Under the pieces are notes generated by a model, which did not search any database, was not told the DNA's origin, and saw nothing but the letters and a program-made list of their open reading frames with translations. 64,000 nucleotides of DNA from Annona cherimola (lineage: Eukaryota; Streptophyta; Magnoliopsida; Magnoliales; Annonaceae): the NCBI GenBank assembly GCA_030490835.1, contig CM059971.1, positions 20,577,817-20,641,816 of the forward strand, written 5' to 3'. The translations under genes were made by a program, and so were the position numbers. Below, piece after piece: positions 20,086 to 64,000 of this stretch; the first letter of the stretch is position 1, and every line of letters begins with the position of its first letter.

Positions 20086-20292
20086 TAAGTATGTACATAT
20101 ATAATTTTCAATATTAATTTTTTTGGGAAATATTTACAAAGAAAATATTTCGTTGTAGTTGACAACATTGGGAAAATACTTTGTATATCAAATATATATT
20201 GTGTTAATCAAAATGCTATTAAGAAAGTACTCTCAAGTATAACCATTACTAAAGTAATTTTTTAATTTTAAAATTTTATTTCTATAGTATAA

Positions 20293-20602: not shown

Positions 20603-20609
20603 TAAGTAA

Positions 20610-21720
20610 GTCTAATACTATCTAGCAGAATTTAACAAAATTTAATAAACTCTAACGGCATCAATCTAAATCTAACCGGATCTAATAAAATCTTTTTATA
20701 TTACTAATTGTGATTTAACGCTCATAACATTCTTTTTGGCTATTATAAAGTCATTTCCCTTAGATATATAGTTTAGAATTTAGTTAATAAGATTTTAATA
20801 ATTGGTCAATCCAAGTTTCACGAAATCTTATAGAGTTTAACCTAAGACTAATAGAATCTCACACTAGTTAATTAAATCTAACCGAACCTAACATAATCGA
20901 TGGTAATATTGATTTAACATGTTAAACATATTTTTTGACTCTTTATAAGGTCATTTATATCTTAGATATATGACTTAGAGCTTAATTAATATAATTTAAT
21001 AAATTCTATCTAAGTCTAGTAGAACTTAACATTGTCTAATGAAATCTAACAGAATTTAACTAATTCTAATAGTATTTAAAGGAATTTAACCTTTATTATT
21101 AATATATCAACTGTGATTTAATACCATAATATCATTTTTGGCTTATTGTAAGGTCATTTATGCTTTGAATACATAGTTCAAAGCTTAGTTAATAGAATTT
21201 AACGAAATCTATCCAAGTCTAATAAAGTCAAATATAGTCTAACAAAGTCTAACATAATCTAATGCTAGATAACTAAATTTAACAGAATCTAACTAAATCT
21301 AACGGGATCTTATGAAATTTAACTTTTACTATTAATATGCTAATCATAGTTTAGCACCATAATATGTTGTTTTAGCACCCATACATCATTTAGAGCTTAG
21401 TTAATAAAATATAATGGAATCTAAGTCTAACCAAATATTACGAAGTATAATCAAGTCCAACATAGTCTAACTAAATATAATAGAATTTTAATTAATTTAA
21501 CTTTCATTTTAAACACCTTTATCATGATTTAGCACACAAAAGATTTCTTAGTTCCTTATACATTTAAGCCATAGATGCACAACTTAGAGCATAGTTAATA
21601 GGATTTAATAGAATTTGTCTGAGTCGAACATATTCTAAAAAAGTCTAACAAAGTTTAACTGTGTCTATCTAGTCTAACTTAGTCTTGTAGAGTCTAATTA
21701 AAGCTAACTAAAGCTAAATA
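20610..21720 (+). repeat. Decayed relative of satellite array B
   Basis: Five imperfect units of about 190-215 bp. Each has a TCTAAC/TCTAAT-rich part, then 'tgatttaac-c-ataac', a 'ttataaggtcattt' block and 'agcttagttaat'. The same order is seen in array B' at 41.9-43.4 kb and 53.8-55.0 kb, but here the 10-bp monomers have largely lost periodicity. Confidence 0.65.
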
Positions 21721-37903: not shown

Positions 37904-38284
37904 CGGAGATGTTGCTGATGAACTTGTTAACGCCCGGGACGTGACATTGTTGCTACCGCTGGGAAGAAAGTGCACCACAAATCAGCCCGAGGAAAGCAGA
38001 AGAAACTGCCGTGTGATGGTTCTTCTTGGAGATTCCGCAACAAAGAAGAAGAAGACGGAACAGAGTTAGCATATATCGGAATTTTCAGTCGCTCATACCA
38101 ATGCACTACAAGCCATCAATCTCGACCACAACAGCAGTTGATCTGCTCTGCTGTAAATGGGACGGACGATTTAATATCGGCAGCAAGGTTGGTAAACACC
38201 CGACGACATCACGTCACACCGGGACATGACATTTACTATATATTTTTAAATTTCATACCAGTTTATATAATGCACCATTCTAAA

Positions 38285-39060
38285 ATCTTTTGAAAAAATT
38301 ATGATATACATACATTTCCCAGATCTGTTCTGGTAAATGCCTCAGTGGGTTTGCCAATTAAGTTATTTTAATTTTTTGGGCTATTATATTAAATATTCGA
38401 TTAGATTTGTAAACTTATATAATTCGTACACTTTTTCCTGAAACTCTGTAATTTGAAAGATCCAAATTTAAATAAAATTGAGCAAATCTATATTAAATAA
38501 CGATCCCAAAAGTATGTCCACAAGTAAATTTGAAGTTCATATACGCAGTTGGAGGCTTGGAGCAAGTGACAAACCCTTAAAGTTAAACGAATGAACGGAC
38601 AGAAAAAAACCAAAAATACCATTTGCAAATAAAACACCGTTTATGTATCCGGCGGTATGCGAAATAAAATATCTTCAGTGCAAAATTTTTGTACACGTAT
38701 ATTTCTCAAATCTGTTTCGATAAATCCCTCCGTAGGCATGCCAGTTAAGTTTTTGGAATTATTCATATTTTTTTAATTAACCATTTAATAAAAAATTTTG
38801 GTCTTTTTTAATTTGTGTATTTTTGGCATTAATTACCTAATTTGGATAGATATACAGAAAGAAAAAGTATTGGCCTAATATACAATAAATAAGAAACACA
38901 AATGTGTGCGCAAAAGTGAGTTTAGGATTAATTAAGTCATTTGCCGCATTAGATTAGAGCATACACACATACATGACAGAAGTTGTTTCCGTGGTTAAAA
39001 TAAAGCACCAATTTTGACCAAAAATGCAAAAGTTCACTAATTTTGACCTGACATCTCGGA
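38285..39060. repeat. Direct repeat inside the TE-1 arm
   Basis: Two copies of about 390 bp share 'tctgtt-cg-taaat-cct', 'gccagttaagtt' and 'aaaagt-' blocks. A reverse complement is found at about 58300-58650 in TE-2, including 'aaaagattttagaa' against 'ttctaaaatctttt'. Confidence 0.6.
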
Positions 39061-39427
39061 ATCGTCCAAATGTAAGTTCGGATGCCTAGCTTTTAAAAAA
39101 GGACTTATGAATGTAATATTTTGCACAAACTTATCTATTTCTAATAAATTATGAAATAAACAAATTTCTATAGAAAATTTACAGGAGATATAACACAATG
39201 GTACATTTTTAGAGGTGTTATATAACATAAAATTTTGTATAAATTTTATATTCAACGTAAATTTTAATTAAATTATTTGTCCACATTGAGTTCATTTGGA
39301 GTAAATAAATTTGTATTACAAGTTTAATTTAATAGATAATGGTAACAAAAAATTATAATTATTATATTTTTTGTAATATAAACTGTAATAACATTATTAT
39401 ATAATTTTTACAAATTTATTATTATAT

Positions 39428-40400
39428 GTGTCCCGCGGGCCTCCAAAAATGAATATTTTATTTTATAAAATATGTATATGCGTCCCGCGGGCCTCCAAAA
39501 ATGTCAATTTTATTTTCTAAAAATATATATGTGTCCCGCGGGGTCCAAACAATGAATATTTTATTTTCTGAAATATATATGTCCCGCGGGCCTCCAAAAA
39601 TGAACATTTTGTTTACTAAAATTATATATGTGTCCCGCGAGCCTCCAAAAATGAATATTTTATTTTCTAAAAATATATATCTATCCCACGGGCGTCTAAA
39701 CAATGAATATTTTATTTTCTGAAAATGTCCTGTGGGCGTTCAAAAATGAATATTTTATTTTCTAAAAATATATATCTGTCCCACGAGCATCCAAACAATG
39801 AATATTTTGTTTTCTGAAAATATATATGTCCTACGGGCGTTCAAAAATGAATATTTTATTTTCTAAAACATATATATGTGTCTCACGGGCATTCAAAAAT
39901 GAATATTGTTTTTCTAAAATATATATATGTGTCTCGCGGGCGTTCAAAAATGAATATTGTTTTTCTAAAATATATATATGTGTCTCGCGGGCGTTCAAAA
40001 ATGAATATTTTATTTTCTAAAATATATATATGTGTCCCGCGGGTGTCCAAAAATGAATATTTTATTTTCTAAAAATTTATATATGCCCAACGAGTGTCCA
40101 AACAATGAATATTTTGTTTTCTAAAAATATATATGTCCCACGGGCGTTCAAAAATGAATATTTTTTTCTAAAATATATATGTGTCCCGCGGGCCACCAAA
40201 ATGAATATTTTGTTTACTAAAATATATATATGTGTCCCGCGAGCCTCCAAAAATGAATATTTTATTTTCTAAAAATATATATCTATCCCACGGGCGTCCT
40301 AAAAATAAATATTTTATTTTCTGAAAATATATATGTCTCACGGGCGTTCATAAATGATTTATTTTATTTTCTAAAATAAATCCGCGGGCATTGAAAAATG
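39428..40400 (+). repeat. Satellite array A in TE-1, about 20 units
   Basis: Units of about 50 bp: a GC core TGTCCCGCGGGC followed by 'tccaaaaatgaatattttat' and a TATATA tail. The period is close to 51 bp, so long open frames (SRGPPKMNILFSKNIYV) arise in all copies; these are not genes. Confidence 0.9.
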
Positions 40401-41054
40401 AATATTTTATTTCTAAAATAAATCCGGAGACTGAAAAAAATATGCTATTTACTAAAAATATTTTATTTTTTATAAAAAAGTTACAGGAGATATAACACAA
40501 GGGTACATTTTTAGAGGTGTTATATAACAAAAAATTTTGTATAAATTTTATATTCAACTTAAATTTTAATTAAATTATTAGTCCACATTAAGTTCATTTG
40601 GAGTAAATAAATTTGTATTTCTTGTTTAATTTAATTAATAATGGTAACAAAAAATTACAATTATTATATTTTTGTAATATAAACTGTAATAATATTATTA
40701 TATAATTTTAATAATTTTTATTATAAAATTTCTATTAAATGTAGTTATTTACTAAATTGATTATTTAACCAATCCCAAAAAGAAACATATATTTATATAT
40801 TAAATATAAATTACAGTTATATATAATTTATTACAATTTTTGTTTTATAGCGTCATATATAATAATTTTTACAATTTTATATATTTACGTAAATTTTGAT
40901 TTTATTTAATTTAAATTTGTTAATATTTTTAATTATTATTTATTTAGTTTTAAAATTATTTAAAGGTTTCCATAGTTATGAAATGAATTATTAATTATAT
41001 ATCTTGTGCAAAATACAAAAATTAGGTAAAATATTTATAAAATTTCAATAATTT

Positions 41055-41434
41055 GATACGGTTAGATGCAGTTAGATGTTGTTAGATGTCGTTAGATGCT
41101 GTTAGATGCCGTTAGATGTCGTTAGATGCGATTAGACGCTATTAGATTAAGTTAGATTTCATTAAAACATATTATATGGGTTTCAAATTCCGTAGTTAAG
41201 GTCTAAATAACGTTATAAGGGGCCTAAGATCATATTACACGTGTTAAATTATGATTAACTTATTAATTTCAAAAATTAGATGTGGTTAGATGTTGTTAGA
41301 TGTCGTTAGATGCTGTTAGATGCCGTTAGATGCGATTTGACGCTGTTAGATTAAGTTGGATTTCATTAAATCATATTATATAGGTTTCAAATTCCGTAAT
41401 TAAGGTCTAAATGACATTATAAGGTGCCTAAGAT
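41055..41434 (+). repeat. Array B in TE-1, left piece
   Basis: Short runs of GTTAGATGCN 10-mers inside a longer unit containing 'gattaagtt-gatttcatta', 'ataaggggcctaggatcat' and 'aacttattaatttc'. It stops at 41434, where TE-3 begins, and resumes at 51583. Confidence 0.88.
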
Positions 41435-41854
41435 GAGTCCCAACCCATAGGAAGCACTTCCCTTGGGTAAAAAAAAGGAAGCTGGGCATTTTGGTAATTT
41501 TACAGCGAGAGTATAATAACTTAAAAACGTGAGTATGTTTGGTTTTTTGATAAAATTTGTATTATATATATACAAAATCTCAATCTATTCCATTCATTTG
41601 CTAGATGAAATATTAAAATGTATGTGGACATAATTTCTCATCATTTGAAAATTTCTAAAAAAAATTTTGTACAAAAAATTATTTTTTAAAAAGATTTCAT
41701 TATAATTAGTAAAGTTAGAAAATATAAATTTTATTAGAAGTTATTTCATATTATTTAAAGTTAATGTAATCATGGTACTCTCAAAAATAACAAGTTCTTT
41801 TATTTTTCTCGAATTTTTGAAAATTTATTAATATTTTATTATTTTCTGAATAAA

Positions 41855-43385
41855 ATCGGATCTAACGGCATCTAACAGCATCTAAGAGCATCTAACAGCA
41901 TCTAACAGCATCTAACAGCATCTAATTTTTAAAATTAATAAGTTAATCCTAATTTAACACCTGTAATATAATCCTAGGTCCCTTATAATGTCATTTAGAC
42001 CATAAATTCTCATATTATATGATTTAATAAAATCATCATAATCTAACAGCGTCTAACAGCGTCTAACAGCGTCTAACAACGTCTAACAGCATCTAACAGC
42101 GTCTAACAGCATCTAACAGCATCTAACAGCATCTAATTTTTGAAATTAATAAGTTAATCATAATTTAACACCTGTAATATGATCCTAGGCCCCTTATAAG
42201 GTCATTTAGACCTTAATTTCTGAATTTGAAACCCAGTTAATATGATTTAAAGAAATCCAACTTAATCTAACAGCGTCTAATGGCATCTAATGGCATCTAA
42301 CAGCATCTAACAGCATCTAACGGAATCTAACAGCATCTAACAGCATCTAACGGCATCTAACAGCATCTAACAGCATCTAACAGCATCTAACAGCATCTAA
42401 TTTTTGAAATTAATAAGTTAATCCTAATTTAACACCTGTAATATGATCCTAGGCCCCTTATAAGGTCATTTAGATCTTAATTACGGAATTTGAAACCCAG
42501 TTAATATGATTTAAAGAAATCCAACTTAATCTAACAGCGTCTAACGGCATCTAACGGCATCTAACAGCATCTAACGGAATCTAACGGAATCTAACAGCAT
42601 CTAACAGCATCTAATTTTTGAAATTAATAAGTTAATCCTAATTTAACACCTGTAATATGATTCTAGGCCCCTTATAAGGTCATTTAGACCTTAATTACGG
42701 AATTTTAAACCCATATAATATGATTTAAAGAAATCCAACTTAATCTAACAGCGTCTAACGACATCTAATGACATCTAACAGCATCTAACAGCATCTAACG
42801 GCGTCTAACAGCATCTAACAGCATCTAACGGCATCTAACAGCATCTAACAGCATCTAACAACATCTAATTTTTGAAATTAATAAGTTAATACTAATTTAA
42901 CACTTGTAATATGATCGTAGGCCCCTTATAAGGTCATTTAGACCTTAATTTCTGAATTTGAAACGCAGTTAATATGATTTAAAGAAATCCAACTTAATCT
43001 AACAGCGTCTAACGGCATCTAAGGGCATCTAACAGCATCTAACGGCATCTAACGACATCTAACAGCATCTAACGGCATCTAACGGCATCTAACAGCATCT
43101 AACAGCATCTAACAGCATCTAATTTTTGAAATTAATAAGTTAATCCTAATTTAACACCTGTAATATGATCGTAGGCCCCTTATAAGGTCATTTAGACCTT
43201 AATTTCTGAATTTGAAACCCAGTTAATATGATTTAAAGAAATCCAACTTAATCTAACAGCGTCTAACGACATCTAACGGCATCTAACAGCATCTAACGGA
43301 ATCTAACCGCATCCAACCGCATCTAACAGCATCTAACCGCATCTAACATCATCTAACAGCATCTAACAGCATCTAATTTTTGAAA
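41855..43385 (-). repeat. Array B' in TE-3, about seven higher-order units
   Basis: Runs of ATCTAACAGC-type 10-mers (3-14 per unit) alternate with a conserved block of about 170 bp ('taattttt-aaattaataag' to 'atccaacttaatctaac'). Unit length is about 220-280 bp depending on monomer number. Confidence 0.92.
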
Positions 43386-43579
43386 TTAATAAGTTAATCG
43401 TAATTTAACACCTCTAATATAATCTTAAGGCCCTTATAAGATCTTATATGTCTTCAAAACCAAATTTGGAACCCAAATAAATATATTAAATTATAATTAA
43501 AAATATTAACTCCACTTGATTTAATGAAATAAAAATTTATATAAAGAAATAAAATAGAAATAAATATTATATATATTTT

Positions 43580-44275
43580 GGATGCCCGCGGGACACATGA
43601 TTATTTTTGTAAAAAAAATATTCATTTGTTAAGGCCCGTAGGACATTTATACATTTAAAAAAAATAATATATTCATTTTTGGACGCCCGCGGGACACGTA
43701 GATATTTTTATAAAATATTATATTCATTTTTGGACGCCCACGGGACACGTATATATTTTTATAAAAACAAAATACTCATTTTTTGAGGCCCGTGGGACAT
43801 TTATACATTTAAAAAAAATAATATATTCATTTTTGGACGCCCGCGGGACACGTAGATATTTTTATAAAACATTATATTCATTTTTTGACGCCCACGGGAC
43901 ACGTATATATTTTTATAAAAACAAAATACTCATTTTTTGAGGCCCGTGGGACATTTATACATTTTAAAAAAATAATATATTCATTTTTGGACGCCCGCGG
44001 GACACGTAGATATTTTTATAAAACATTATATTCATTTTTGGACGCCCATGGGACACGTATATATTTTTATAAAAAAAATACTCATTTTTTGAGGCCCGTG
44101 GGACATTTATATATTTTTAAAAAGTAATATATTCATTTTTGGACACCAGCGGGACACAAAGATATTTTTATAAAACATTATATTCATTTTTTGACGCCCA
44201 CGGGACACGTATATATTTTTATAAAAACAAAATATTCATTTTTTGAGGCCCGTGGGACATTTATACATTTTTATA
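43580..44275 (-). repeat. Satellite array A in TE-3, first block
   Basis: About fifteen units of 45-50 bp with GC cores GCCCGCGGGACA or GCCCACGGGACA. A higher-order pattern of three alternating unit types is visible. Confidence 0.88.
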
Positions 44276-45189
44276 AACCGTCTATTGTTATAAATATTTT
44301 GCAAATCAAAGTAGAGTAAGGTAAGCAACTTTCTAAAAAGATCAAAATTTGTATTAAACTCACACACCCGTAACACTCCATTAAAAAACATAAAAATTAA
44401 CTAACTTCCCACCCACGCGCCCTTTCACACACATTATTATATTAATATAATATATTTTAAAAAATAAATTAGATCTTCAGTTACAATATATCTTTAAATT
44501 TTTATAATCCATGGACTTTTATTCGATTTTAATGATTCTAAATAATATAAACATGTACAAAAGAAATATAAATGTATAATTAAAAATAATAGTAGATAAT
44601 ATCTTTTTTTTATGGAAAGGAAAATCTTATTCGCTCTCCCCTCCAGTATGGAAAGGAGAATGGATAAGAAAATCCGAGCAATTCATTGCCAAAAAAATGT
44701 CTGTACAGATTTTTCCTTCTATTACATGAGGGGGATTATCCTACAATTATAATATATCTACAATTTTTAATGTTCACGTAAGCTCCTTTTATTTTCGTGA
44801 TTCTAAGTAATTCATGGGATTAGTTCAATAATCAGTTTAGTAAATAACTATATTTAATACAAATTTTATAATAAAATTTATTAAAATTATAAAATAATAT
44901 TATTACACTTTATATTACAAGTTTAACGTACTAATATACTAATTGTGATTTATTATTACTAGAATTAATTTATTTAAAATAAAAATAAAAATTTATTTTT
45001 TCAAGTGAAATCAATGTAAAACTATCAATTTAATCAATTTAATAAATTTATTATGTTGATTTATTTTGCGAACTTAGTAAGCTAAATTTCTAAAGCTCTA
45101 GAGTTCACTTATCTGTCTCATTGCTTGTTATAATTTAAAATAAATATTTATTTAAGTCAAATTAAAATAAAAAGATCAAATTAAAACAT
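44276..45189. other. AT-rich spacer in TE-3
   Basis: No gene. The stretch around 44800-45180 shares 'attagt-caataatca' and 'agtaaataacta' blocks with the AT-rich parts of TE-1 and TE-2. Confidence 0.5.
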
Positions 45190-45775
45190 TCATTTTTGGA
45201 GGCCCGCGGGACACATATATATTTTTAGAAAACAAAATGTTCATTTTTAGAGGCCCGCGTGACACATATATATATTTTAGAAAATAAAATATTCATTTTT
45301 GGACGCCCACGGGACATGTATATATTTTAGAAAAATAAAACATTCATTTTTAGAGGCCCGCGAGACATATATTTTTAGAAAATAAAATATTCATTTTTGG
45401 AGGCTCGCGGGACACATATATATTTTAGAAAACAAAATATTCATTTTTGGAGGCCCGCATGACACATATATATTTTAAAAAATAAAATATTCATTTTTGG
45501 ACGCCCGCGGGACATGTACATATTTTAGAAAAATAAATATTCATTTTTGGAGGCCCGCAGGACACATATATATATTTTAGAAAATAAAATATTTATTTTT
45601 GGAAGCTCGCGTGACACACATATATTTTAGAAAATAGAATATTCATTTTTGGACGCCCGCGGGACATGTATATATTTTAGAAAAACAAAACATTCATTTT
45701 TTGAGGCTCGCAGGACACATATATTTTAGAAAATAAAATATTTATTTTTGAATGCCCGCGGGACATATATTCTTA
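45190..45775 (-). repeat. Satellite array A in TE-3, second block
   Basis: About twelve units of 48-51 bp with cores GGCCCGCGGGACA, in the same orientation as the first block. Confidence 0.9.
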
Positions 45776-46683
45776 TAGTTTATATAAAAATTTTAAAAAT
45801 ATCAACTCCTAAATTTAAATAAAACAAAGATTAATTTAAATTAATTTATGTGAATATAAAATTATGAATTTAACAAACATTTTGTTAAATAGAAAGTTTG
45901 TAACAAAATTCTTGGATGTTTCTTCAATTATTATAATAAGTATTAATTTGAAATTAGAATTTTTTTGAAATTAATTTGAAAATAATACAAGTTTATAACC
46001 CACCATACAACACAAAATTCGTGAATTTTACCGTTAACGACTGAAAATAAATTGTTACATTTTACCTGATTCTTTGCCTTGGATTTTATAACAAAAATAG
46101 TTTCTTATAGTTGATTCTCTGCCTTCAATCACGGAAATGAATTCAACATTTAATGTCAATTAATTCTTACAAATGTTGCATTTCAATTGATTTTTGCCTC
46201 TGGCTTTGCCGAAAACAGATTCTTTCACTGATTTTCTGCCTTTGTTCGTGAATTGCCAGAAATCTGGTGGTACATGCATTGAAATTATCATGCTGAATTT
46301 GACAAGGTGAACATGAACATACTAAGCATGCACTATACGTGTAATCTGTCGAAAGTCTACAAGTATTACATAGAATTATAAATAAGTTGTACATAGAACG
46401 TGAAGAAAACATCCCGTGAGTGTAAAATTTTATGAAAAAGAGAGAATAAAAGAGAGGAATTCAACAACAAATTGTGCGCTAATTTTCGCACAAAATATTA
46501 TTAGGGACAAGAAAGAAGAAATGTTATTGGAACATTAATAAATGAAAGCTAGCCAAATGAAATAAAAAGATCTACGCTTGTAAGAAAATAGGAGAACCAT
46601 CGCCATCAAATACAGAGCTTAACCACCTCCCGATCTTCAATGGAAAGAGAGCCTCCTTGGCAGATAACATGGAAAGAGAGATG
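45776..46683. other. Spacer between array A and the CIPK pseudogene
   Basis: AT-rich, no gene recognised. It probably includes the 3' flank captured with the CIPK sequence. Confidence 0.45.
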
Positions 46684-50801
<4,118 letters not shown>

Positions 50802-51281
50802 TGGGCATAACAGTCTGGTGTACTGCTCCAGCACGCACGAACCGCACGCAGCGCCTTCTTTCTCCAGTTTCATTTTCAACGCTGCTAGCCGCTCTCCAAA
50901 CGTCGCCAGAGCTTCCGCACTCGATGAATCAACTGCGAAAGAAAGCCACAAGCTTGTCAGAGGGGCGGGAATATGCTGGTCTGGATACAAGGCAAACGAA
51001 GCAGAGAACATATTAGAATAGTCAACGAGGAACGAACCCGTTTGTGAAAGCACTGGAGGTCCTACGGAGTTAAACCGCGATTTTTTCATGGCGCACAACT
51101 GGAATTTGGAGAAATGTCTTCGGTGAGTGGTGGGAAGGAAGTGAAGGTAGGTACGGATAAGGAGGACGTGGGGAAAGAGGAAGGGAGGCGTGGTGGGGAA
51201 GCATTTCAGCAGGTTTTTGGAGCTCATGAGAAAGCGGTTGCTGGAGAGAAGGGTGTGGAGAGGACGGTGAGGAAGAGGCAT
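50802..51281 (-). pseudogene. First exon of a TWINKLE-like organellar primase-helicase, captured
   Basis: ATG 51281 opens 160 codons: an arginine/leucine/serine-rich start with MSSKNLLKCF, typical of an organelle transit peptide, then an acidic-charged part RLAALKMKLEKEG and CGSCVLEQYTRLLCP. In plant TWINKLE the corresponding segment begins the primase zinc-binding module (C..PGQ..L.CP.C). The frame leaves similarity at the last proline, near a GT. No helicase exon follows; the next sequence is the duplication and CIPK. Upstream, at 51360-51480, is a leader containing 'aaaccctag'. The identification rests on remembered family motifs only. Confidence 0.5.
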
Positions 51282-51479
51282 GCTCCCGCTCCTTCTAAGC
51301 CTGCCTCTCCCAACGCACACGCCTTGGCGTGTTTGCAGAAGCAAAAGAGGAGGGAGGAGAGGGAGACGGGCTAGAGAAACCCTAGAGGGAGACACGACTG
51401 TCGAACGAGAAAAAGGGAAATGAGATGCGAGTCGCGAGTGCCGAGTGCCGGTCGATGTCTGTCTCACATTTTCACTTAC

Positions 51480-51582
51480 CGAAAATGCCCCGTTCAATCT
51501 CAGCCATCAACGCAAAATGAACGGCAGATATGGCACTTCCCCTGGGAAAAGCATGGAAAGCGCTTCCCATGGGTTGGGGTGG
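51480..51582 (-). mobile_element. Right terminus (gene end) of TE-3
   Basis: Read inward (minus strand): CCCAACCCATGGGAAGCGCT, a second GGGGAAG box, 'tgagattgaacggggcattt' and 'tcggtaag'. The same order occurs at the gene ends at 60629 and 61419. Confidence 0.7.
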
Positions 51583-52835
51583 AAACAGGTGTTAAATTAG
51601 GATTACCTTAATAATTTCAAAAATTAGATGCGGTTATATACTGTTAGACGCCGTTATATGCTGTTAAATGTTGTTAGATGTTGTTAGATGTCGTTAGATG
51701 CGATTAGACGCTGTTAGATTAAGTTAGATTTCATTAAATCATATTATATGGGTTTCAAATTCTGTAGTTAAGGTCTAAATGACGTTATAAGGAGCCTAGG
51801 ATCATATTACGGGCGTTAAATTTTGATTAACTTATTAATTTCAAAAATTAGATGCGGCTAGATGCTGTTAGATGTGGTTAGATGCTGTTAGATGTCGTTA
51901 AATGCTATTAGATACTGTTAGATACGATTAAACGCAGTTAGATTAAGTTGGATTTCATTAAATCATATTATATGGGTTTCAAATTCCGTAATTAAGGTCT
52001 AAATGACATTATAAGGGGCCTAGGATCATATTACAGATGTTAAATTAAGATTAACTTATTAATTTCAAAAATTAGATGCGGTTAGATGCTGTTAGATGTG
52101 GTTAGATGCCATTAGATGCTATTAGATGCCGTTAGATGCTATTAGATGCCGTTAGATGCTATTAGATGTCGTTAGATGCTATTAGATGTTGTTAGATGCG
52201 ATTAGACGCTGTTAGATTAAGTTGGATTTCATTAAATCATATTATATGAGTTTCAAATTCCGTAATTAAGGTCTAAATGATATCATATTACAGATGTTAA
52301 ATTAAGATTAACTTATTAATTTCAAAAATTAGATGCGGTTAGATGCTGTTAGATGTGGTTAGATGCTGTTAGATGCCGTTAGATGCGATTAGACGCTGTT
52401 AGATTAAGTTAGATTGCATTAAATCATATTATATGGTTTTCAAATTCTGTAATTAAGGTCTAAATGACATTATAAGGGGCATAGGATCATATTACAGGTG
52501 TTAAATTAGGATTAACTTATTAATTTTAAAAATTAGATGCGGTTAGATGTGGTTAAATGTTGTTAGATTCCGTTAGATGTTGTTAGATGCCGTTAGATGC
52601 AATTAGACGCTGTTAGATTATGGTGATTTTATTAAATCATATAATATGGGTTTCAAATTCTATAAATAAGGTCTAAATGACGTTATAAGGGCCTAGGATC
52701 ATATTACAAGTGTTAAATTAGGATTAACTTATTAATTTCAAAAATTAGATGCGGTTAGATGCGGTTAGATGCTGTTAGATGCGGTTAGATGCTGTTAAAT
52801 GCGGTTAGATGCTGTTAGATGCCGTTAGATCCGAT
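51583..52835 (+). repeat. Array B in TE-1, right piece, about five units
   Basis: GTTAGATGCN monomers in units of about 220-250 bp, inverted relative to the B' arrays at 41.9 and 53.8 kb. The first unit is cut at its 'acaggtgttaaatt' block by TE-3. Confidence 0.9.
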
Positions 52836-53249
52836 GATATTCAGAAAACAAAAAATATTAATAAATTTTCAAAAATTCGAGAAAAATAAAAGTAGTTATT
52901 TTTTAGAGTACCTTAATTACATTAACTTTAAATAATATAAAATAACTCCTAATAAAAATTATATTTTCCAACTTTACCAATTATAATGAAATCTTTTTAA
53001 AAAATAATTTTTTGTACACAAATATTTTTAGAAATTGTCAAATAATGAAAAATTATGTCTACATAAATTTTAATACTTGATCTAGCAAATGAATGGAATA
53101 GATTGAGATTTTGTATATATATAATACAAATTTTATCAAAAAACCAAACATACTCACGTTTTTAAACAAATATACTCTCGCTGTAAAATTACCACAATGT
53201 CCAACTTCCTTTTTTTCCCAAGGGAAGTGCTTCCCCTGGGTTGGGACTC

Positions 53250-53421
53250 ATCTCCACTTTGGCTCCAACCGTTTAGAAGGTCTAATTCCTTCCTCCTTAG
53301 GAAATTTGATGGAGCTTGCTTCCCTGACACTGGGCCCCAATCTTCTTGAAGGTCCGATTCCTTCCACCCTCGCAAATCTCAAGCAACTTGTTGATCTTGA
53401 CCTTCGAGCCAATCGTTTGAT
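53250..53421 (+). pseudogene. LRR receptor kinase fragment B, 172 bp
   Basis: Corresponds base for base in length to 9530-9701 of the LRR kinase (reverse complement), encoding about two and a half LRRs from the HFGSNRLEG to the LRANRL blocks. Differences are few. It is bounded exactly by TE-1's GGGTTGGGACTC and TE-2's GAGGCCCAACCC. It cannot be a functional gene. Confidence 0.92.
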
Positions 53422-53844
53422 GAGGCCCAACCCAGGGGAAGCACTTCCCTTGAGAAAAAAAGAAAGCTGGGCATTGTGGTAACTTTACAGCGAGAGTATA
53501 TTTATTTAAAAACGTGAGTATGTTTAGTTTTTTTTATAAAATTTGTATTATATATATACAAAATCTCAATCTATTCCATTCATTTGCTAGATCAAGTATT
53601 AAAATGTATGTAGACATAATTTTTCATTATTTGACAATTTCTAAAAATATTTGTGTACAAGAAATTATTTTTTAATAAGATTTCATTATAATTGTTAAAG
53701 TTGGAAAACATAATTTTTATTTGGAGTTATTTTATATTATTTAAAGTTAATGTAATTAAGGTACTCTAAAAAATAACAACTTCTTTTATTTTTTTTGAAT
53801 TTTTGAAAATTTATTAATATTTTTTTTTATTTTCTGAATATAAT

Positions 53845-55045
53845 CAGATCTAACCGCATCTAACCACATCTAACCAGATCTAACCGCATCTAATCGCATC
53901 TAATCGGATCTAACCGCATCTAATTTTTTAAATTAATAAGTTAATCCTAATTTAACACCTGTAATATGATCCTAGGCCCCTTATAATGTCATTTAGACCT
54001 TAATTACGGAATTTGAAACCCATATAATATAATTTAATGAAATCACCATAATCTAACAGCGTCTAATCGCATTTAACGGCATCTAACAGCATCTAACTGC
54101 ATCTAACCGCATCTAACGGCATCTAACCGCATCTAACAGCATCTAACCGCATCTAATCGCATCTAATTTTTGAAATTAATAAGGTAATCCTAATTTAACA
54201 CCTGTAATATGATCCTAGGCCCCTTATAAGGTCATTTATACCTTAATTACGGAATTTGAAACTCAGATAATACGATTTAACAAAATCCACTTTAATCTAA
54301 CAGCGTCTAACCGGATCTAACCGCATCTAACAGCATCTAAACGCATCTGACCGGATCTAACAGCATCTAACTGCATCTAACCGCATCTAACTGCATCTAA
54401 CCGCATCTAATCGCATCTAATTTTTGAAATTAATAAGTTAATCATAATTTAACACCTGTAATATGATCCTAGGCCCCTTATAAGGTCATTTACACCTTAA
54501 TTACGGAATTTGAAATCCAGATAATATGATTTAACAAAATCCACCTTAATCTAACGGCGTCTAACCGCATCTAACTGTATCTAACCGCATCTAACAACAT
54601 CTAATCGCATCTAATTTTTGAAATTAATAAGTTAATCCTAATTTAACACCTGTAATATGATCCTAGGCCCCTTATAAGGTTATTTACACCTTAATTACGG
54701 AATTTGAAACCTAAATAATATGATTTAATGAAATCCACCTTAATCTAACTGCGTCTAACCGCATCTAACTGCATCTAACCGTATCTAACCGGATCTAACT
54801 GCATCTAACCGTATCTAATAGCATCTAACCGCATCTAATCACATCTAATTTTTGAAATTAATAAGTTAATCCTAATTTAACAGCTGTAATATGATCCTAG
54901 GCCACTTATAAGATCATTTACATCTTAATTATGGAGTTTGAAACCAGATAATATGATTTAATGAAATCTAACTTAATCTAACGGCATCTAACAGCGTCTA
55001 ACAGCATTTAACCACATATAACTGCATCTAATAACATCTAATTTA
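53845..55045 (-). repeat. Array B' in TE-2, about five units
   Basis: ATCTAACCGC/ATCTAACAGC monomers and the same conserved block as in TE-3. Monomer variants differ from TE-3 (more ACCGC and ACTGC), so the two arrays have diverged or been homogenised separately. Confidence 0.92.
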
Positions 55046-56284
55046 TGATATTTTATAAATATTTTACCTAATTTGTGTATTTTGCAAAAGATATATAATT
55101 AATAATTCATTTCATAACTATGCAAACCTTTAAATAAATTTTAAAGTAAATGAATATATGAATTTATAATTAAAAATATTAACTAATTTAAATTAAATAA
55201 AATCAAAATTTACGTAAATATATAAAATTGTAAAAATTATTATATATGACGCTATAAAACTAAAATTATAACAAATTATATATAACTGTAATTTATATTT
55301 AATATATAAATATATGTTACTTTTTGGGATTGGTTAAATAATCAATTTAGTAAATAACTACATTTAATAGAAATTTATAATAAAATTTGTTAAAATTATA
55401 TAATAATATTATTACAGTTTATATTACAAAAATATAATAATTGTAATTTTTTCTTAGCATTATTAATTAAATTAAACTAGAAATACAAATTTATTTACTC
55501 CAAATGAACTCAATGTGGACAAATAATTTAATTAAAATTTATAGAAAATTTTATGTTATATAACACCTCTAAAAATGTACCCTTGTGTTATATCTCCTGT
55601 AAATTTTCTATGCATATTTGTTTATTCTATAATTTATTAGAAAAAAGTACCTTTCTGCGGAATGTTACATTTATAAGTCCTTTTTGAAAAAGTAGGCATC
55701 ACTGAAAGCATGTTTCCGTTTTCGAGATGTCATCAATTGGTAAAAATTGGGCATTTTCGGTCAAAATCGCTTCATTATTTTGACCACGGAAATAATTTAT
55801 GATTTTGACCGAAAATGATTTTTCTATAATTTATAATTTTTTACCTAATCTATATATTTTGCAAAAAATATATATATTTAAATATTTATTCCAGGTCTAA
55901 ATAATTTTAGAACTAAATAAATGTATAAAGTTATAATTAAAAATTCAACTCCACTTGATTAAATGAAATAAAAATTTACGTAAATATATAAAATAGTAAA
56001 AAATATTATATATATGACGTTGTAGATCCAAAATTTAGATAAATTATATATAACTGTGACTTAGATTTAATATGTAAATATATTTTACTTTTTAGGATTG
56101 GTTAAATGATCAATTTTGCATATAAATATATTTAATAGAAATTTTATAACAAAATTTTTTAAAATTATAAAATAATATTATTACAGCGATTATTAGATTG
56201 TTTATTTAATAAATCAATTTTAAAGTTATATTAAAGATTCTTTTAAACATCATTTTTATGTGGATAAATAATCCTATATATTTA
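55046..56284. other. AT-rich modules of TE-2
   Basis: No gene. Reverse-complement matches to 40.4-41.05 kb and 39.0-39.3 kb of TE-1 are visible, for example 'ataacacctctaaaaatgta' and the 'gacatctcg' / 'cgagatgtc' motif. Confidence 0.6.
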
Positions 56285-57425
56285 GAAAATAAAATATTCA
56301 TTTTTAGAGATGCGTTGGACACATATATATTTTTAGAAAATAAAATATTAACTTTTGGAGGCCCGCGGGACACATATATATTTTTAGAAAATAAAATATT
56401 CATTTTTAGAGGCCCGCGAGACACATATATTTTTAGAAAATAAAATATTCATTTTTGGAGGCCCGCGGGACATTTATATATTTAAGAAAACAAAACATTC
56501 ATTTTTGGAGGCCCATGAGATACATATATATTTTTAGAAAATAAAATATTCATTTCTGGAGGCCCGCGGGACACATATATATTTTTAGAAAATAAAATAT
56601 TCATTTTTGGACGCCCGTGGGACACATATACATATTTTAGAAAACAAAATATTCATTTTTGGATGTCCGCGGGACACATATACATATTTTAGAAAACAAA
56701 ATATTAATTTCTGGACGCTCGCGGGACATATATATTTTTGAAAAATAAAATATTCATTTTTTGGATGCCCGCGGGACATGTATATATTTTAGAAAAATAA
56801 AACATTCATTTTTGGAGACCCACGGGACACATATATATTTTTAGAAAAAAAAATATTCATTTTTGGAGGCCCACGAGACACATATATATTTTTAGAAGAC
56901 AGAATATTCGTTTTTGGATGCCCGCGTGACACATATATATTTTAGAAAATAAAATATTCATTTTTGGAGGCCCGTGGGACACACATATATATTTTAGAAA
57001 GCAAAATATTTATTTTTGGAGGCCCACAGGACACATATATATTTTAGAAAATAAAATATTCATTTTTGGACGCCCGCGAGACACATATACATATTTTAGA
57101 AAAGAAAATATTCATTTTGGGACGCCTGCGGGACATGTATATATTTTAGAAAATAAAATATTCATTTTTAGAAGCCCGCGGGACACATCTATATTTTTAA
57201 AAAATAAAATATTCATTTTTAGAAGCCCGCGGGAGACATATATACTTTTAGAAAATAAAATATTTATTTTCGGAGGGCCGCGGGACACATATATATATTT
57301 AGAAAATAAAATATTCATTTTTAAAGGTCCGCATGACACACATATATTTTAGAAAATAAAATATTCATTTTTGGAGGCCCGCGGGACGCGTATATATTTT
57401 AGAAAAATAAAATATTCATTTTTAA
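56285..57425 (-). repeat. Satellite array A in TE-2, about 23 units
   Basis: Units of about 49-51 bp: GGCCCGCGGGACACATATAT, then 'ttttagaaaataaaatattc' and 'atttttgga'. This is the longest A block in the window. Confidence 0.92.
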
Positions 57426-59770
57426 AGTTATATTCAAGAGTATTTCAAACATCATTTTTATGCGGATAAATAATCCTATAATATTATTAAATTCTAATAC
57501 ATTTGAATCTCAGAACTTTTTATATTTGACATGAGAATAGTTTTTTTTGCTAAAAGAAAATGTAACTCACTTACATCTGATTTTGTTCTATAATAAAATT
57601 AAGGATTTTGAACAATATTGTGAACCGTAAGTTTTTTTATTCTATTATAAAAAGGGTTTCATCGAAGAGGTTGTAACTTAGGTTTTCACCAAATCAAAAG
57701 CGTTGATATTTTTTTATAGAATCTCATCCTTCAAAATTGAACTTAAATAAAATGAAGATGTTGGGAATAAATAAGAATTCAAAACAAATTTAATCAATAA
57801 ATTATAGGTTTCAATATAGTTTTAACATCCATAAAGAACAAGATAAAATTTTCAGCATTAGGACGTTGACTCTTTAGATAAGCGTTCTAATTTAAATGTG
57901 CGATAGCAATCGTTTAAAAAGATGGTAATGCGGGTGTTACTGTTAACTTTTTATTTGAAACTTCTGATATCAATAACATGGTAAATTTTAGATAAAATTT
58001 TTGAAATTTTAGTGTAAAAATAATTTTTTTACATACTATACATGATACTTAATCGCTATAATGGTGTTTAAAATTAATATAATAATTGTAATTTATTGTT
58101 ACTGTAATTAATTAATTAAAACTAAAAATATAAATTTATTGACTTCAAGTGAAATCAATGTAAACAAAGAATTTAATAAATATATATATTGAACAAAAAA
58201 TATATAAAAAATTTCATTTTATAGAATACCTCTAAATATATACCTTCGTGTTATATCTCCTGTAAATTTTCTATTTCACATACCGCCAAATATATAACTG
58301 ATGTTCAATTTGCAACAAGTTTTTTTTTTATTTTTCCGTCCGTTCATTCATTTAACTTTAAGGGTTCGTCACTTACGGCAACTGCCCAAATGAACTCCAA
58401 ATTCACTTCTTGTCACACTTTTGGGATCCTTATTTAATATAGATTTGCCCTTTTTTTTGAATCTTTTGAATCTATGAAGTTTGAGCGAAAAGTGTACAAA
58501 TTATAAAAGTTTAAAAATCTTATTGAATCTTTAATAAAATAGCCTCAAAATTTTAAATAACTTAATTAGCGTACCCATGGAGACATTTACTGGAATAGAT
58601 CCGCGAAATGTAGGTATACCATAATTTTTTTTACAAAAGATTTTAGAATTCATTCTATATGAAAACTTTTTAATAATCATATTTTATATAAAATCTTTCA
58701 ATTGACTATGCTAGTGAATTGAATAATTGGACATTTATACAAATCTAAAAAATTCCAACTACATAAAAGATTTATTTTTACAAGTTTATTTAAAATATAT
58801 AAATAGAAACTTTATAAAAAAATTACATGATTTTGTAGTTATTTTATATCATTTTCACAAAATGTTAAGAGAAATTATATTGAAATTGAGGTTTTGATGC
58901 ACTAACTAGTGATATTTATATTTTCTACACAAATTTATACTTATATTTATAAACTTAATAATTCATTTTAGAAATATGCCAATATGTAATTTATAACATT
59001 AATTTAATATATTATAGATATTATGAAATTTTTGAAATAAAATGTTGTAACTTATTCTTTAAAATTAAGTTGGTATATAAATATTTACCTTCAAAAAAGT
59101 TATTATATAAGATATTTAAAAATATTAATATTGTGCCTTTGAAAATACATTTCTATACAAGAAAATACCTCTAAAAATGTCTTCCAAATGATGCCTACAA
59201 AAATAATAAAAAAAAATTAAAAACATATATATACATAGACACGCTCAATTTATTATATTAAGTTATTTTCTAAACATAGTTGCTTAAATTTGCAGTAACT
59301 TATATGATTCATTTGTCTTCCATCTAGTCATCTCAATGTAAAATAAGTATTAAATTAAATTAAATTAAATATCAAATCGGTTAATTATACATATGATCAA
59401 TTTTTAATGTTTAGCTATTTTGCAAATTTTCAAACACTCTCAGTGTTTACTCATTTCTCTAGTTGCTCATTTGAATTTAAAATTAATAAAAATAAATATT
59501 AATTTAAATTAAATTAATCAATATAAAATTATCAATATATATTTGTATTAAATAGAAATTTTATAATTTTTTTTATCACAACATAGTTAGATATACCATT
59601 ATTTTTACAGTATATTATCAATATACGGTGAAACTGTAATATATATAGGTTTCTCACCCTTTTTGTTAAAACAAGAAACCATCGTACAATTTTTTTTACA
59701 TCATCCCATGAAAATAAATCATTTATTCGGGATTTCATCAAAAAAATAATTTATTCGGGATGAGAGAATG
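57426..59770. other. AT-rich interior of TE-2
   Basis: No gene recognised. Up to about 58650 it is related in reverse complement to 38.25-39.06 kb; beyond that it is unique to TE-2. Confidence 0.5.
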
Positions 59771-59771
59771 G

Positions 59772-60493
59772 CTAGGAATGTTCCAACACACATTGCATGA
59801 ACACCAAATTTTGTGTACCGCCAGAGCATAGAGTCTTAATACTCCACCATCTTCTCCAGCCTCTCCTTCGTCTTGTCATGGCTGCCACCTTCAATAAAGC
59901 TCTATTAACGACCGCCACCACTAGATCAATTATCCTTTTCCCCAAATCGAGCAACCTCTTCATCGCCTCCATTGCGAAGGCCCAAATTTTATGTTCCCAA
60001 AAGTGGGAACCGGTGATGGTAGGTTGGTGATGCTGGCATGAAACCCACCAAATTTGGTGTTCCCGATACCAGTGGCTACACGTCCTCTGCCATTTGCATG
60101 GATTGTTAAGTGGAGCTACCATAAAAAACTCGTCAAATTACAGTAGCCAGATACCTCAAAAAAATTTCTATCCCAAGCAATGAATCTGCCTCGACAAAAA
60201 ATTCACTCAGCACCATCTTGCATTCGACTGAAATTCAGCAACTCGTTCACTTCATCATCAAGGAATTTTTGGGCATGAGAACCAATTAAAGAATCTGCCC
60301 GATCTCCCTCACTTTTGCATTCTTCTCGCCCAACACCCACTGCCGACCATGGATTCCTCCGTGACGCTACCATGGAACCCACCAAAATTTCCCCGATTTT
60401 TACTGCAATTTCCCCCATACTAGTAATGATCTTTTGCTTGAGAGGGAGGGAGGAAGACGGAATGGGAGAGGAGGTGAGGGTGAGATCCAACAA
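59772..60493 (-). other. Gene-like region at the gene end of TE-2, unknown product
   Basis: Less AT-rich than its surroundings. Two minus-strand frames: 60203-60493 (internal ATG at 60418, reading MGEIAVKIGEILVGSM, ending in an acidic stretch) and 59772-60122 (containing MEAMKRLLDLGKRIIDLVVA). They may be exons of one captured host gene. The start lies about 200 bp inside the terminus, as in TE-3 and TE-4. The family is not recognised. Confidence 0.35.
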
Positions 60494-60629
60494 CGTCGTG
60501 CCTCCCTTTCGAATTTTTTGAGTTTCCTAGAATACCCCATCTCATCCTAGCCGTCCATTCAAAATTAATGGTAAAGATGCAGCTTCCCACGAGAAAAGCA
60601 TGGGAAGCGCTTCCCATGGGTTGGCGCTC

Positions 60630-61417
60630 CGCTTGAGATTCCCCAGTTGGGAAGGTATCATGCCAGAGAGTTGCGTGTAACAGATATGCAAGCGGGTAAG
60701 GTTGGTCAGGTTAAGAATAGTGGAACGGATGCCACCGCTTAACCATGGGTTGAGGCACAACCGCAAGTCTTCCAGACTGCTAATGTTTCCTATTTCCTGA
60801 GGGATGGGGCCTGAGATGTTGGTTCGCTCTATGTATAATCCTGTCTGCTGGGTCAAATTACCTAGAGATGGAGGGACGGGGCATGACACATTGTTTTCAT
60901 CCAGAATTAGAAAGCGCAGGTCCTTGAGTAATCTTATCTTCGGAGGTATCAACCCAATGACCGAAGGATTTTTGGATATGTCCAAATGATGGAGCTTGCT
61001 TAGCTTGCTAATTTTCGACGGAAGTTCCCTTGTGAATCCATTGGATTGAAGTTTGAGGGAAATGAGTCTACTGGAGTTGGCAAAGGTATCTGGGGTTATT
61101 CCATCGGTTAAGTCATTGTTGGAAAGATCGAGCTCCAGAATAGGAGTGAGATTTGCTAGTGAAAGAGGCAAGGGCCTAGTGAATTGGTTGGAGGAGAGAT
61201 CAAGGAAAGAGAGTTTCGAAAGCATACCAATTTGGGCAGGAATGTTTCCTTGGAATGAGTTGGAGCTGAGGTTGAAGCGAGCCAGGTTCGGAAAAGAAGA
61301 GAAGTTGAATGTTGCTAGTGTGCCTTGCAAACTCAGATTCCAAAGGTCTATTTCCAGCACACTGCGTGCTGTGTTGCAGAGGATGCCGGTCCAGTTGCAT
61401 GGACAACTATCTTGGGC
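60630..61417 (-). pseudogene. LRR receptor kinase fragment A, 788 bp
   Basis: Same length as, and collinear with, 9710-10497 of the LRR kinase. It encodes the N-cap (CNWTGILC) and about nine LRRs to QLGNLKR. Similarity is high, with substitutions such as RELPSKISK for GELLSEISK. It is open throughout, but lacks signal peptide, start codon and everything after LKR. It is bounded by TE-2's right end and TE-4's left end. Confidence 0.93.
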
Positions 61418-61781
61418 TGAGGCCCAACCCATAGGAAGCGCTTCCTACGTTTTTCTTGTAGGAAGCTTCATTTGAACCATTGATTTTCAATCCACGGTTG
61501 AGATTGATCAGGGCATTTTGGGAAAAAAATTTCTAAGAAGGGTCTTGATTGCCGCTTCCCACACGCAGCAGTCTCCTGCGTCCTTCTTCTCATCCGATAG
61601 CCTCCCTACGAATCAGCCGCACGTCTCTGCCCGTCTCCCATTCTCCCATCCCAGCCGCCGCACCTCTCTGCCCCTGCCTCCCATTCTTCTGTCTCCCATC
61701 CTGACAGCCGCACATCCCGACGGCCGCACGTCCCTACTCCTGCCTCCCATCCTGTTTCCTCATCCGAACCCTAAAGTTCAA

Positions 61782-62265
61782 ATGGCGTCAAGAGCGAATG
61801 TGATTAAGCCTTATGGAGAGGGAAGTGGAGTTAGAAGAACAGAGTCAAAGATCGAGCGAGGAGAGGAAAAGGGAGTTGAAAGAACAGAGGCAAAAGGAGC
61901 TGCAGGCAAACATCATGGCTGAGTTGACGCTGAATATAGGACAATCGGATTTTGCTACTGCAACCAATCGTCTTTCTCCCTGGGTAGCCCGACAGAAGTT
62001 CTTGATCATGTTGACAGATGTTTGGGAGTACATCGACTTGACGGAAATAGGTGTGCCTCTTACCAATCCAGGAAATGGAAAGAAGATTATTATCATTCCC
62101 AAATCTAAGTTCATCCATGAGCATGTCAAAGCTGATTTATTATTGGGACAAACTTCAGAATTTTACCTGAAGACCAAGCATGGCAATTATTACGTGCAGA
62201 GGCTAGGGATGCAGCTGCAACTCTCTCGTTTTATCCCAACATCTTGTCCTTTTACCATTGAGTGA
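61782..62265 (+). pseudogene. 5' part of a captured gene in TE-4, unknown, frame-shifted
   Basis: ATG 61782 follows a GC-rich leader but its frame closes at 61922. A second frame, 61813-62265, carries a charged, helix-forming stretch (RSSEERKRELKEQRQKELQA) and then a less charged part ending FIPTSCPFTIE. The two overlap in different frames, so the copy is either frame-shifted or spliced. I do not recognise the family. Confidence 0.35.
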
Positions 62266-63885
62266 CTGCTCATTAGTTGGTCATGAATGCTGTTGCTGAA
62301 ATTTTGAGTGCGCCTGAAATTCTTATTTTTGTTTGGAGTCAGTTTCAGTATTTGCTCGGTTTGATTGAATAATAGTTGGATTGTTTGTTAAGGGCCTGTT
62401 TTGAATTCAATGTCTATTGATTTGAGTGTTCCTAAATTTATCAGTATTTGTTAAAAGAATCGAGCCTGGGACAGCTGGACTGGAATGTAAAATTGAATTT
62501 GTGTCTATTGCAACAAGGGATTTAAAGGATGAGCTGATTGTGTAGGTGAGTATTTCAACTATACTGCTCCAAACTCTGTCCGGGAATTCAATCAGGTAGG
62601 CTTACTAAAAGCATCTCCATTTTATTTGCATTTTTGGTGAAAATTCTCTCTGTCTAACTAATATTTGCATTTCCATACAAAACTAATATTTACATTTTAG
62701 TTAGTTACTATTTTGCTTTGGATCATCTCAAATTTCTTATATTGTGCATAAGATTGTTATCTTCTGGATCTCTGAATCCTCAAATGAATTGAAACTACTT
62801 AAGCTTTCTTCTAGAATTTGTTTCTATAGGTTGATTTTGCAAGTCATAGACAAGCCAACAATCATACATCCACATAGTGAGTGGAGATAAAAAGGAGTAA
62901 GTGGTAATACTTCAATCATATGAATTGTTATAGATATTGTAGTTTTTGTTACTTGTTTCAATTTTACAAGTTCAATTACCTTCTTCTCTACTTGTCGTGC
63001 ATTATTGTTCTTTCATTTTCAGTGACGAATTATTGAACAAGTTTTCTTTTTTGGTGTTTGATTGGGTTGGTCCTCCTGTTTGAAGTTTTACTTATTTTAT
63101 TTGTTTTGTTTGCCCCCTTCAAAAGAGGTTTTAGCCACAGCTAGATTTGCTTAGCAAGGCTTCAACTTGATACATCATATAAGTTTTATTAAGTGTGTAT
63201 ATCGTGTTCTAGCACTTGGTCATGTCTCAAAATCAGGATTTCATCAAATTAGGATTTTCATGTTATATACTATACCATTTTCATTCTGCAAGTTGGCGTT
63301 AAAATAACTTATAGGCCCTTTAGTCCTATAACTCCAACTACTAAGCTTAATACCCAAATTGGAATACATCAAGTAAAATTTCGTAGAAGTCATCTTAAAC
63401 GTCAACATATGCGTATAACCTCATTTTGTATGACTCTTCTTGAAGTATGTGGGGTCCAGTATTTTGTAGTCTCACCCCACCAATCTTCTACAGATTTGAA
63501 TGCCTTAAATTCTTATCAGTCGTTGGCTTGGTGTTGGCCTTGATTGGAACTCTCCCCATTGCTCTAGTTCTTTAAGGTTGGATTATCTTTTTGGATTTTT
63601 GAATCACGTTGAACTTTCGACATCTGAATATTAATAGCAAAAACTTATCATGTGGCACCAGATTCGATGCCTTCTGACAGCATCTCTTGTAAGTCTCCAT
63701 CTTAACAGTTCCATAACCAATGCGGGATTAGCTAAATAGCTTGTGTTGCATCATTCTTTATAATCATGAACTTTGTTTTGAGTTGAGAAAAGATGCATCG
63801 TATTGTTGTTGTTCTTTGTCCGACCGTTTATCTTTGCATTCATTCTTTACACTTTTAGTTGTAGTCTTAACATTTTTAGTTGATT
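62266..63885 (+). other. T-rich, probably intronic sequence in TE-4
   Basis: No exon could be fixed. T-richness and scattered TTGCAG/TTTCAG sites suggest introns of a captured gene. Confidence 0.35.
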
Positions 63886-63960
63886 TGCAAGGTGAGAAAT
63901 GCAAATTTTCACATGATACGTTAACAAAATCCCCAGTACTATCATTCAACTCGTTTCATT
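63886..63960 (+). pseudogene. CCCH zinc-finger exon fragment
   Basis: After a TTGATTTGCAAG acceptor-like site the frame reads GEKCKFSHDTLTKSP, the end of a C3H zinc finger (C-x3-H) as in plant CCCH proteins that bind RNA. The exon's upstream cysteines would lie in a previous exon that I could not locate. It may belong to the gene captured in TE-4. Confidence 0.4.
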
Positions 63961-64000
63961 CTGTTTTATTTAATATCACTTACAAGGTGGGATGACACAT

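Follow-up and report, generated by a model that had tools for sequence, protein, structure and literature searches.

The 64,000 bp stretch of Annona cherimola DNA analysed here (the window; C1:20577817-20641816 of assembly GCA_030490835.1, which comprises 791.8 Mb in 1370 contigs, numbered here with the prefix C) contains six termini of a family of large mobile elements. On the domain layout of their transposase, these are assigned to the Mutator-like elements (MULEs) of the FAR1/Jittery type. An account made earlier from the letters of the window (the sequence-only reading) had proposed that each element has one satellite-loaded array end and one gene end. It listed six termini, and a direct sequence check found all of them in place, namely T1 at 41435 (+), T2 at 51578/51582 (-), T3 at 53249 (-), T4 at 53422 (+), T5 at 60629 (-) and T6 at 61419 (+). 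The features are listed below, with the evidence for each in brackets.

38250-41434 (-): left part of outer element 1, with spacer-like DNA, 51-bp array A (39423-40418) and the start of array B (41061-41430) (repeats; similarity to locus L106).
41435-51578 (no strand): element 2, T1 to T2, with a CIPK-type kinase, inserted into array B of element 1 (flanked by array B at 41061-41430 and 51624-52830; sister with a 10-bp duplication).
41435-41500 (+): T1, array-type terminus, GAGTCCCAACCCATAGGAAGCACTTCCC (terminus match).
41860-43440 (+): array B of element 2, the ATCTAACNGC decamer in longer units of ~214-264 bp (repeat analysis).
43562-45770 (+): array A of element 2, 51-bp units in blocks 43562-44271 and 45178-45770 (repeat analysis).
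46560-50479 (-): captured, decayed CIPK-type kinase gene with introns, 5' end toward T2 (Pfam kinase pieces and NAF).
50479-51578 (-): gene-end leader of element 2 and T2, terminal four bases lost (similarity to ten other places).
51585-53249 (-): right part of element 1, with array B (51624-52830), spacer and terminus T3 (repeats, terminus).
53250-53421 (+): leucine-rich-repeat (LRR) coding fragment, 172 bp (matches the paralogue at 9530-9705 in reverse orientation).
53422-60629 (no strand): element 3 as it now stands, with T4, array B (53840-55045), array A (56275-57423) and T5 (repeats, termini).
60630-61418 (-): LRR coding fragment (collinear with the paralogue at 9710-10497, 93.7 %).
61419-64000 (+): T6 and the start of a further element with an NB-ARC fragment (61804-62262), the other end lying outside the window (Pfam, terminus).

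The far end of element 1 was not found within the window.

The sequence CCCAACCC is exact at five of the window termini and T5 reads GCCAACCC. The GGAAGC-CTTCC palindrome is present at all six, as had been claimed, with one substitution (CTTTCC) at T2. The motif GGGCATT, also attributed to all six, is exact at T1, T2, T4 and T6 but has single-base variants at T3 (GGACATT) and T5 (GGGTATT). T1, T3 and T4 lead into a spacer, the decamer array (ATCTAACNGC) and 51-bp arrays, and the density of ATCTAA in the four B-array blocks of the window is 41-43 per kb. The GC content of the first 1 kb is 0.436-0.498 at T2, T5 and T6 versus 0.274-0.300 at the array ends, and both the arrays and this difference agree with the proposed division into array-leading (T1, T3, T4) and gene-leading (T2, T5, T6) termini. 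Array ends have a short A-rich link, GGGCATT and a spacer before the decamer array; gene ends have a longer stretch from GGAAGC to GGGCATT, followed by GC-richer sequence. CCCAACCC, which had been taken as the element end, is near-terminal, but the true start lies four bases farther out (GAGG or GAGT in most fetched copies). T2 (51582) lacks these terminal four bases, which are kept by a near sister of element 2 (C2:88116911-88128372). Both kinds of end thus carry the same inverted terminal sequence (GAGK/CCCAACCC, palindrome and GGGCATT), though diverged and with an indel, and because these motifs are shared we regard the array end and the gene end as homologous, diverged terminal inverted repeats (TIRs; GAGKCCCAACCCA, palindrome, GGGCATT).

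A 23-base terminus pattern, with at most one mismatch allowed, matched 834 ends in the host genome and the reversed pattern, used as a control, matched none, so the family is not a product of chance. Patterns classified 339 of the 834 as array or gene ends, a set that covers the later chromosomes only thinly; 94 were typed from core letters alone (92 array-like, 2 gene-like). Adjacent convergent typed ends no more than 30 kb apart were treated as pairs. There were 42, and 38 of them joined one array end to one gene end, with the A-rich link verifying the array end in 19 of these 38; when labels were shuffled the mean number of such pairs was 20.7, and 38 was never reached in 20,000 shuffles. 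The genome therefore supports the original proposal of an array side and a gene side in each element. The pairing of array ends with array ends, which the sequence-only reading had named as evidence that would count against it, is rare (2 of the 42 pairs) though not fully absent. The gene+gene pairs represent a single locus on C4 plus its duplicate on C58, which appears to be a duplicate contig. This C4 pair (C4:19250700-19260386) was considered as a transposase-bearing element and was dropped after the duplicate (L106; C58:180300-190050) had been read. Because L106 contains no open reading frame (ORF) of 100 aa, carries arrays that run both ways and shows no target duplication when inspected by eye, the locus looks like two elements fused through their arrays.

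Flanks were compared for 15 of the 38 array+gene pairs, with mismatched flank combinations (n=210) as the control. Target duplications of 8-10 bp were found in 11 of the 15 pairs and in none of the controls, bearing out the check that the sequence-only reading had called for. Ten of the 11 are without mismatch (that at C4:75151958 with a one-base offset), and C3:60627945 matches at 8 of 9 positions. The sister of element 2 has a perfect 10-bp duplication, ATACTGCGCC.

The transposase found between these ends is represented by C2:23429080-23431218, which encodes 722 aa with FAR1 (60-155), MULE (275-368) and SWIM (563-591) domains; the MULE domain (PF10551) scores 109.5 bits. It is on this FAR1, MULE and SWIM layout that the family is classed with the FAR1/Jittery-type MULEs. 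The closest protein is unnamed (52 % identity over 65 % of the query) and the next is FAR1-RELATED SEQUENCE-like (~35 %). A protein search, in which 63 of 1622 candidates were scored, recovered at least 49 family copies at ≥65 % identity, with split rows merged, and at least seven of these are open 722-aa frames that are 97-100 % identical. Typed ends lie within 25.5 kb, facing inward, for 23 of the 49. Among the links between ends and transposases, 18 are gene ends with the transposase pointing away, nine are array ends with the transposase pointing toward them and one is contrary (27 of 28 run from gene to array). The gene end of the contrary link belongs to a 5.5 kb element, and the transposase lies ~16 kb beyond the other end of that element. 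None of 12 relatives at 40-47 % identity has a typed end placed in this way. When the best 150 of 1099 places with a MULE domain were examined, 14 lay on the inner side of a typed end at a distance of up to 25.5 kb; the 13 links to gene ends all pointed away from the end, the five to array ends all pointed toward it, and the outward-side control gave five links.

Five elements have both typed ends with a transposase between them, and range from 18.6 to 25.4 kb:

C2:23412821-23438197, 25.4 kb: target duplication AGCTCTCCC.
C3:60627945, 22.7 kb: target duplication, 8 of 9.
C1:83062224, 21.3 kb: both typed ends.
C3:7529565, 19.7 kb: target duplication CAAACTAACC.
C2:49773730, 18.6 kb: no target duplication.

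Target duplications were thus seen in three of the four whose flanks were read. In four near-identical copies the gene end is 6.95-6.98 kb upstream of the transposase ORF. The Ulp1 peptidase is an accessory of some MULEs; there are 11 Ulp1 matches in the genome, none near any of the seven open transposase copies. One of them, C5:36471419, is ~4 kb downstream of a decayed family transposase (C5:36465657-36467375).

On the array side, over the inner 1.4-1.5 kb of array ends, the median is 31.4 decamer hits per kb, with 54 of 56 records above 15 (56 of the 60 records match the terminus pattern, and copies fetched twice are included). Inside gene ends the median is 1.3 (30 of 30 below 5), and in the outside flanks the medians are 1.8 and 1.3. 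The array ends of transposase-bearing elements are no different in kind, with 34.3, 27.9 and 22.1 hits per kb at L017, L024 and L049. In 33 of 35 distinct copies the distance from CCAACCC to the start of the array is 381-435 bp, which places the array ~0.42 kb inside the array terminus, and the first 400 bp of the 35 copies have a median identity of 95.5 %. In 964 mid-run units the ATCTAA positions are 89-99.7 % uniform and position 8 is free. A degenerate relative of the decamer array, with 10 ATCTAA in 20600-21700, occupies 20600-21750 of the window and is probably an old element remnant.

On the gene side of element 2 is a decayed CIPK-type kinase gene with introns and its 5' end toward T2, in which Pfam recognised one kinase piece and a NAF domain above the cut-off and three kinase pieces below it. 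The region (46560-51450) recurs at 99 % identity over 4.7-4.9 kb at ten or more further places, some of which, on small contigs, may be duplicates, which marks a recent spread of the cargo. One of these copies, at C1:20674468, is ~33 kb to the right of the window. The direct donor was not found among the best 40 of 173 candidates, the best other CIPK relatives being 73-84 % identical in exons; exon matches of 75-84 % occur at C7:68022383 and its duplicate C145, and of 73-76 % at two more places. No transposase match was among those listed in the CIPK-carrying element, whether T1-T2 or its sister. The ~970 bp leader nearest T2 recurs at 90-94 % identity elsewhere, in at least ten places of which five are immediately inside listed gene ends, so the same leader has been joined to different contents. 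The T6 side holds an NB-ARC fragment, and L064 a DUF674 fragment, the sole Pfam match in ten ORFs selected from 71 at gene-end loci. All three recognised cargos (CIPK, NB-ARC, DUF674) read inward from the gene end. In the Pfam scan of window ORFs, six of ten had a match and three more ORFs had none; no identification was obtained for the content at T5. Host cargo is thus shown at T2, T6 and L064, but this side is not in essence a captured promoter: in transposase-bearing members it is the region that precedes the transposase gene (of 19 links to gene ends, 18 point away from the end, the exception lying beyond its own element).

Within the window, the present T4-T5 pair is probably a recombined product, and T4-T5 as an original pair was rejected, because the 172 bp that separate T3 from T4 run opposite to the LRR paralogue. 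That paralogue matches the LRR gene that received the elements; it has no element over 9530-10497 and includes a 531-aa LRR frame, the gene continuing in another frame. As the match at 53246-53421 is inverted and that at 60630-61417 is collinear, T3 and T5 are most likely the former flanks of a single insertion, and the simplest account is that the 172-bp piece was flipped by recombination between the inverted array ends T3 and T4. Ends also cluster: seven of ten divergent neighbouring pairs within 30 kb are <1 kb apart; by simple arithmetic, 339 ends placed at random in 792 Mb would give ~0.04. Back-to-back examples are C1:27347891/27348010, C2:49792282/49792349, C2:122382789/122382886 and, in the window, 53249/53422 and 60629/61419. 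Gaps in fetched loci are 10, 18, 22, 23, 172, 245, 272, 323, 448, 789 and 1352 bp; the 10-bp case (L101) is a weak match, and without it the smallest gaps, 18-23 bp, are at L100, L080 and L011. This clustering above chance suggests that new copies often land beside old ones or in shared hot spots. Elsewhere in the window, several AT-rich repeats at 19140-20615, ending in GGGTGTGTTTGG-like sequence or its complement and including a perfect 3 x 22 bp repeat (20389-20454), are possibly small terminal-repeat elements.

The reading we favour, with a probability of roughly 0.9, is that these are FAR1/Jittery-type MULEs in which gene-carrying members have kept the polarity of the transposase-bearing element. 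It starts from the pairing of ends, the target duplications, the identity and orientation of the transposase and the arrays at the array ends of transposase-bearing copies. Both ends and the array are retained in gene-carrying members, whose host pieces lie on the gene side, so inheritance from the transposase-bearing element is the simplest source of the polarity. In such an element the gene end is upstream of the transposase and the tandem-repeat region downstream, stopping ~0.42 kb before the array end, and insertion leaves the 8-10 bp duplications. Gene-carrying copies, in which cargo may have replaced the transposase, would be moved by cut-and-paste by the family transposase. Cargo may have been taken up between the gene end and the array, perhaps by gap repair or template switching, which part of a paper on Pack-TIR elements in animals discusses (PMC8277862). 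The gene end or its leader may act as a promoter driving the cargo, and the array may either recruit a protein, in the manner of the VANC-bound tandem motifs of VANDAL MULEs, or be neutral. The open frames at 97-100 % identity and the copies of the CIPK cargo at 99 % indicate recent activity.

Several findings weigh against this reading. Two convergent pairs are array+array and two are gene+gene, though the latter are one locus and its duplicate contig. No target duplication was present in four of the 15 pairs read, namely C1:123244658, C2:49773730 and the window pairs T1-T2 and T4-T5, and when T3-T5 was compared with the empty site, 8 bp of target (GAGTGAGT) were missing and there was no duplication. 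At T1-T2, 6 bp of the array-B unit are missing (by eye); slippage between GAGT repeats could explain one side of T3-T5, not both. Only 339 of the 834 ends are typed, 94 of them by core letters alone. Relative to these 339, 26 of the 49 transposase copies have no listed end inward within 25.5 kb, and seven listed ends point away from a family transposase copy. With ~7 kb separating the gene end from the transposase ORF, the leader is a less convincing candidate for the promoter of the transposase, and two array-type ends, L029 and L053, have almost no array nearby.

In Helitrons and Helentrons the two ends differ, hairpins are terminal and genes are captured, and some families have minisatellites on one side; the palindrome by each terminus, the unlike ends, the gene cargo and the one-sided arrays would all suit such rolling-circle transposons. 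However, no target duplication is expected of them and 11 of 15 pairs have one of 8-10 bp, the same inverted sequence starts both ends, and the transposase inside the elements is of the FAR1 and MULE type; a rolling-circle origin is refuted for the pairs with duplications and is very improbable for the family. We give equally little credence to array sides and gene sides being two families joined by nested insertion and paired through local jumping. Nesting and back-to-back insertion are indeed common (11 fetched cases, one of them weak, have divergent ends separated by 10-1352 bp), but the target duplications bracket an array end together with a gene end, which refutes this for the pairs that have them, and the transposase sits between such pairs in a fixed orientation.

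As to the role of the array, tandem repeats grow by slippage without selection, and there are roughly even odds that the array is a neutral satellite without a role that expanded away from the transposase gene, the polarity arising because the gene side does not tolerate repeats. The ends L029 and L053 that lack an array favour this; the element that ends at L053 (C4:75151958) has a target duplication, so the array is dispensable for insertion of at least some copies. The confined start of the array in 33 of 35 copies and the uniformity of ATCTAA around a free position 8 speak against neutrality, although homogenisation within arrays together with shared descent could also yield both. A less likely proposal, made by analogy, is that the element benefits from a protein bound to the array, which could be the transposase or an anti-silencing factor like VANC. 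This would account for a 10-bp motif that is densely and uniformly repeated on a single side of a MULE, in transposase-bearing and other members alike, and it has a parallel in VANDAL elements, where VANC proteins bind tandem motifs (PMC5735166, in part). Set against this candidate role, the motif is unlike the VANC21 motif YAGTATTAY, and no accessory gene was identified, with no Ulp1 near the open transposases and no search aimed at VANC.

The sequence-only reading had called such polarity unusual for MULE-like Pack elements; that it sets the family apart from MULEs is not supported, given the MULE transposase, duplications of MULE length and shared inverted terminal sequence. Of the features that define MULEs, target duplications of 8-11 bp (8-10 seen), PF10551 between the ends and TIRs are all present. 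Pack-MULEs are usually described with two similar ends. As in Pack-MULEs, MULE ends surround host gene pieces, among them a CIPK-type gene with no transposase among the matches listed there, the cargo side is GC-richer and the three recognised cargos read inward; the difference is that cargo was seen on the gene side only, with arrays at the other end. The family also resembles the Jittery/FAR1-type MULEs (group 36, PMC6446971), which share the N-terminal FAR1, MULE core and C-terminal SWIM domains in one ORF and the inverted terminal similarity. In the part of that source drawn on here, FAR1-type MULEs are tabulated with a target duplication of 8 bp or with no length given, versus 8-10 bp in the present family, and there is no mention of elements that reach 18.6-25.4 kb and have 10-bp and 51-bp arrays on one side. 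The same part gives VANDALs as lacking TIRs or having short degenerate ones; the Annona elements differ in sharing inverted terminal sequence at both ends, and in their motif. Tandem-TIR MULEs, according to a partial view of PMC3310237, also have added terminal structure and in some cases gene fragments, but they duplicate whole TIRs, mostly at both ends (48 of 61 tomato elements), whereas here 10-bp and 51-bp satellites are at one end. No description of one-sided satellite arrays in FAR1-type MULEs was found in the open-licence literature searched by title and start of abstract.

A bolder and somewhat more doubtful extension of the protein-binding proposal, again by analogy, is that the decamer array (~30-40 sites per kb, ~0.42 kb from one terminus) may be a dedicated protein-docking platform of a FAR1-type MULE. 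The VANC-like tandem-motif strategy would then have arisen a second time, independently, or else the array would serve to load the transposase; almost all fetched array ends would have retained it for this, leaving the opposite end free to acquire host genes that read inward.

For the A. cherimola genome, these findings mean that 10-bp and 51-bp satellite arrays near genes can be transposon parts, and that inverted copies of such arrays can apparently flip segments of host genes. With open, near-identical transposases, hundreds of ends, several cargos and a single fixed polarity, this lineage allows the role of each end to be asked: whether cargo enters only on the transposase side, whether gene-end sequence drives the cargo and whether the tandem motifs recruit a protein.

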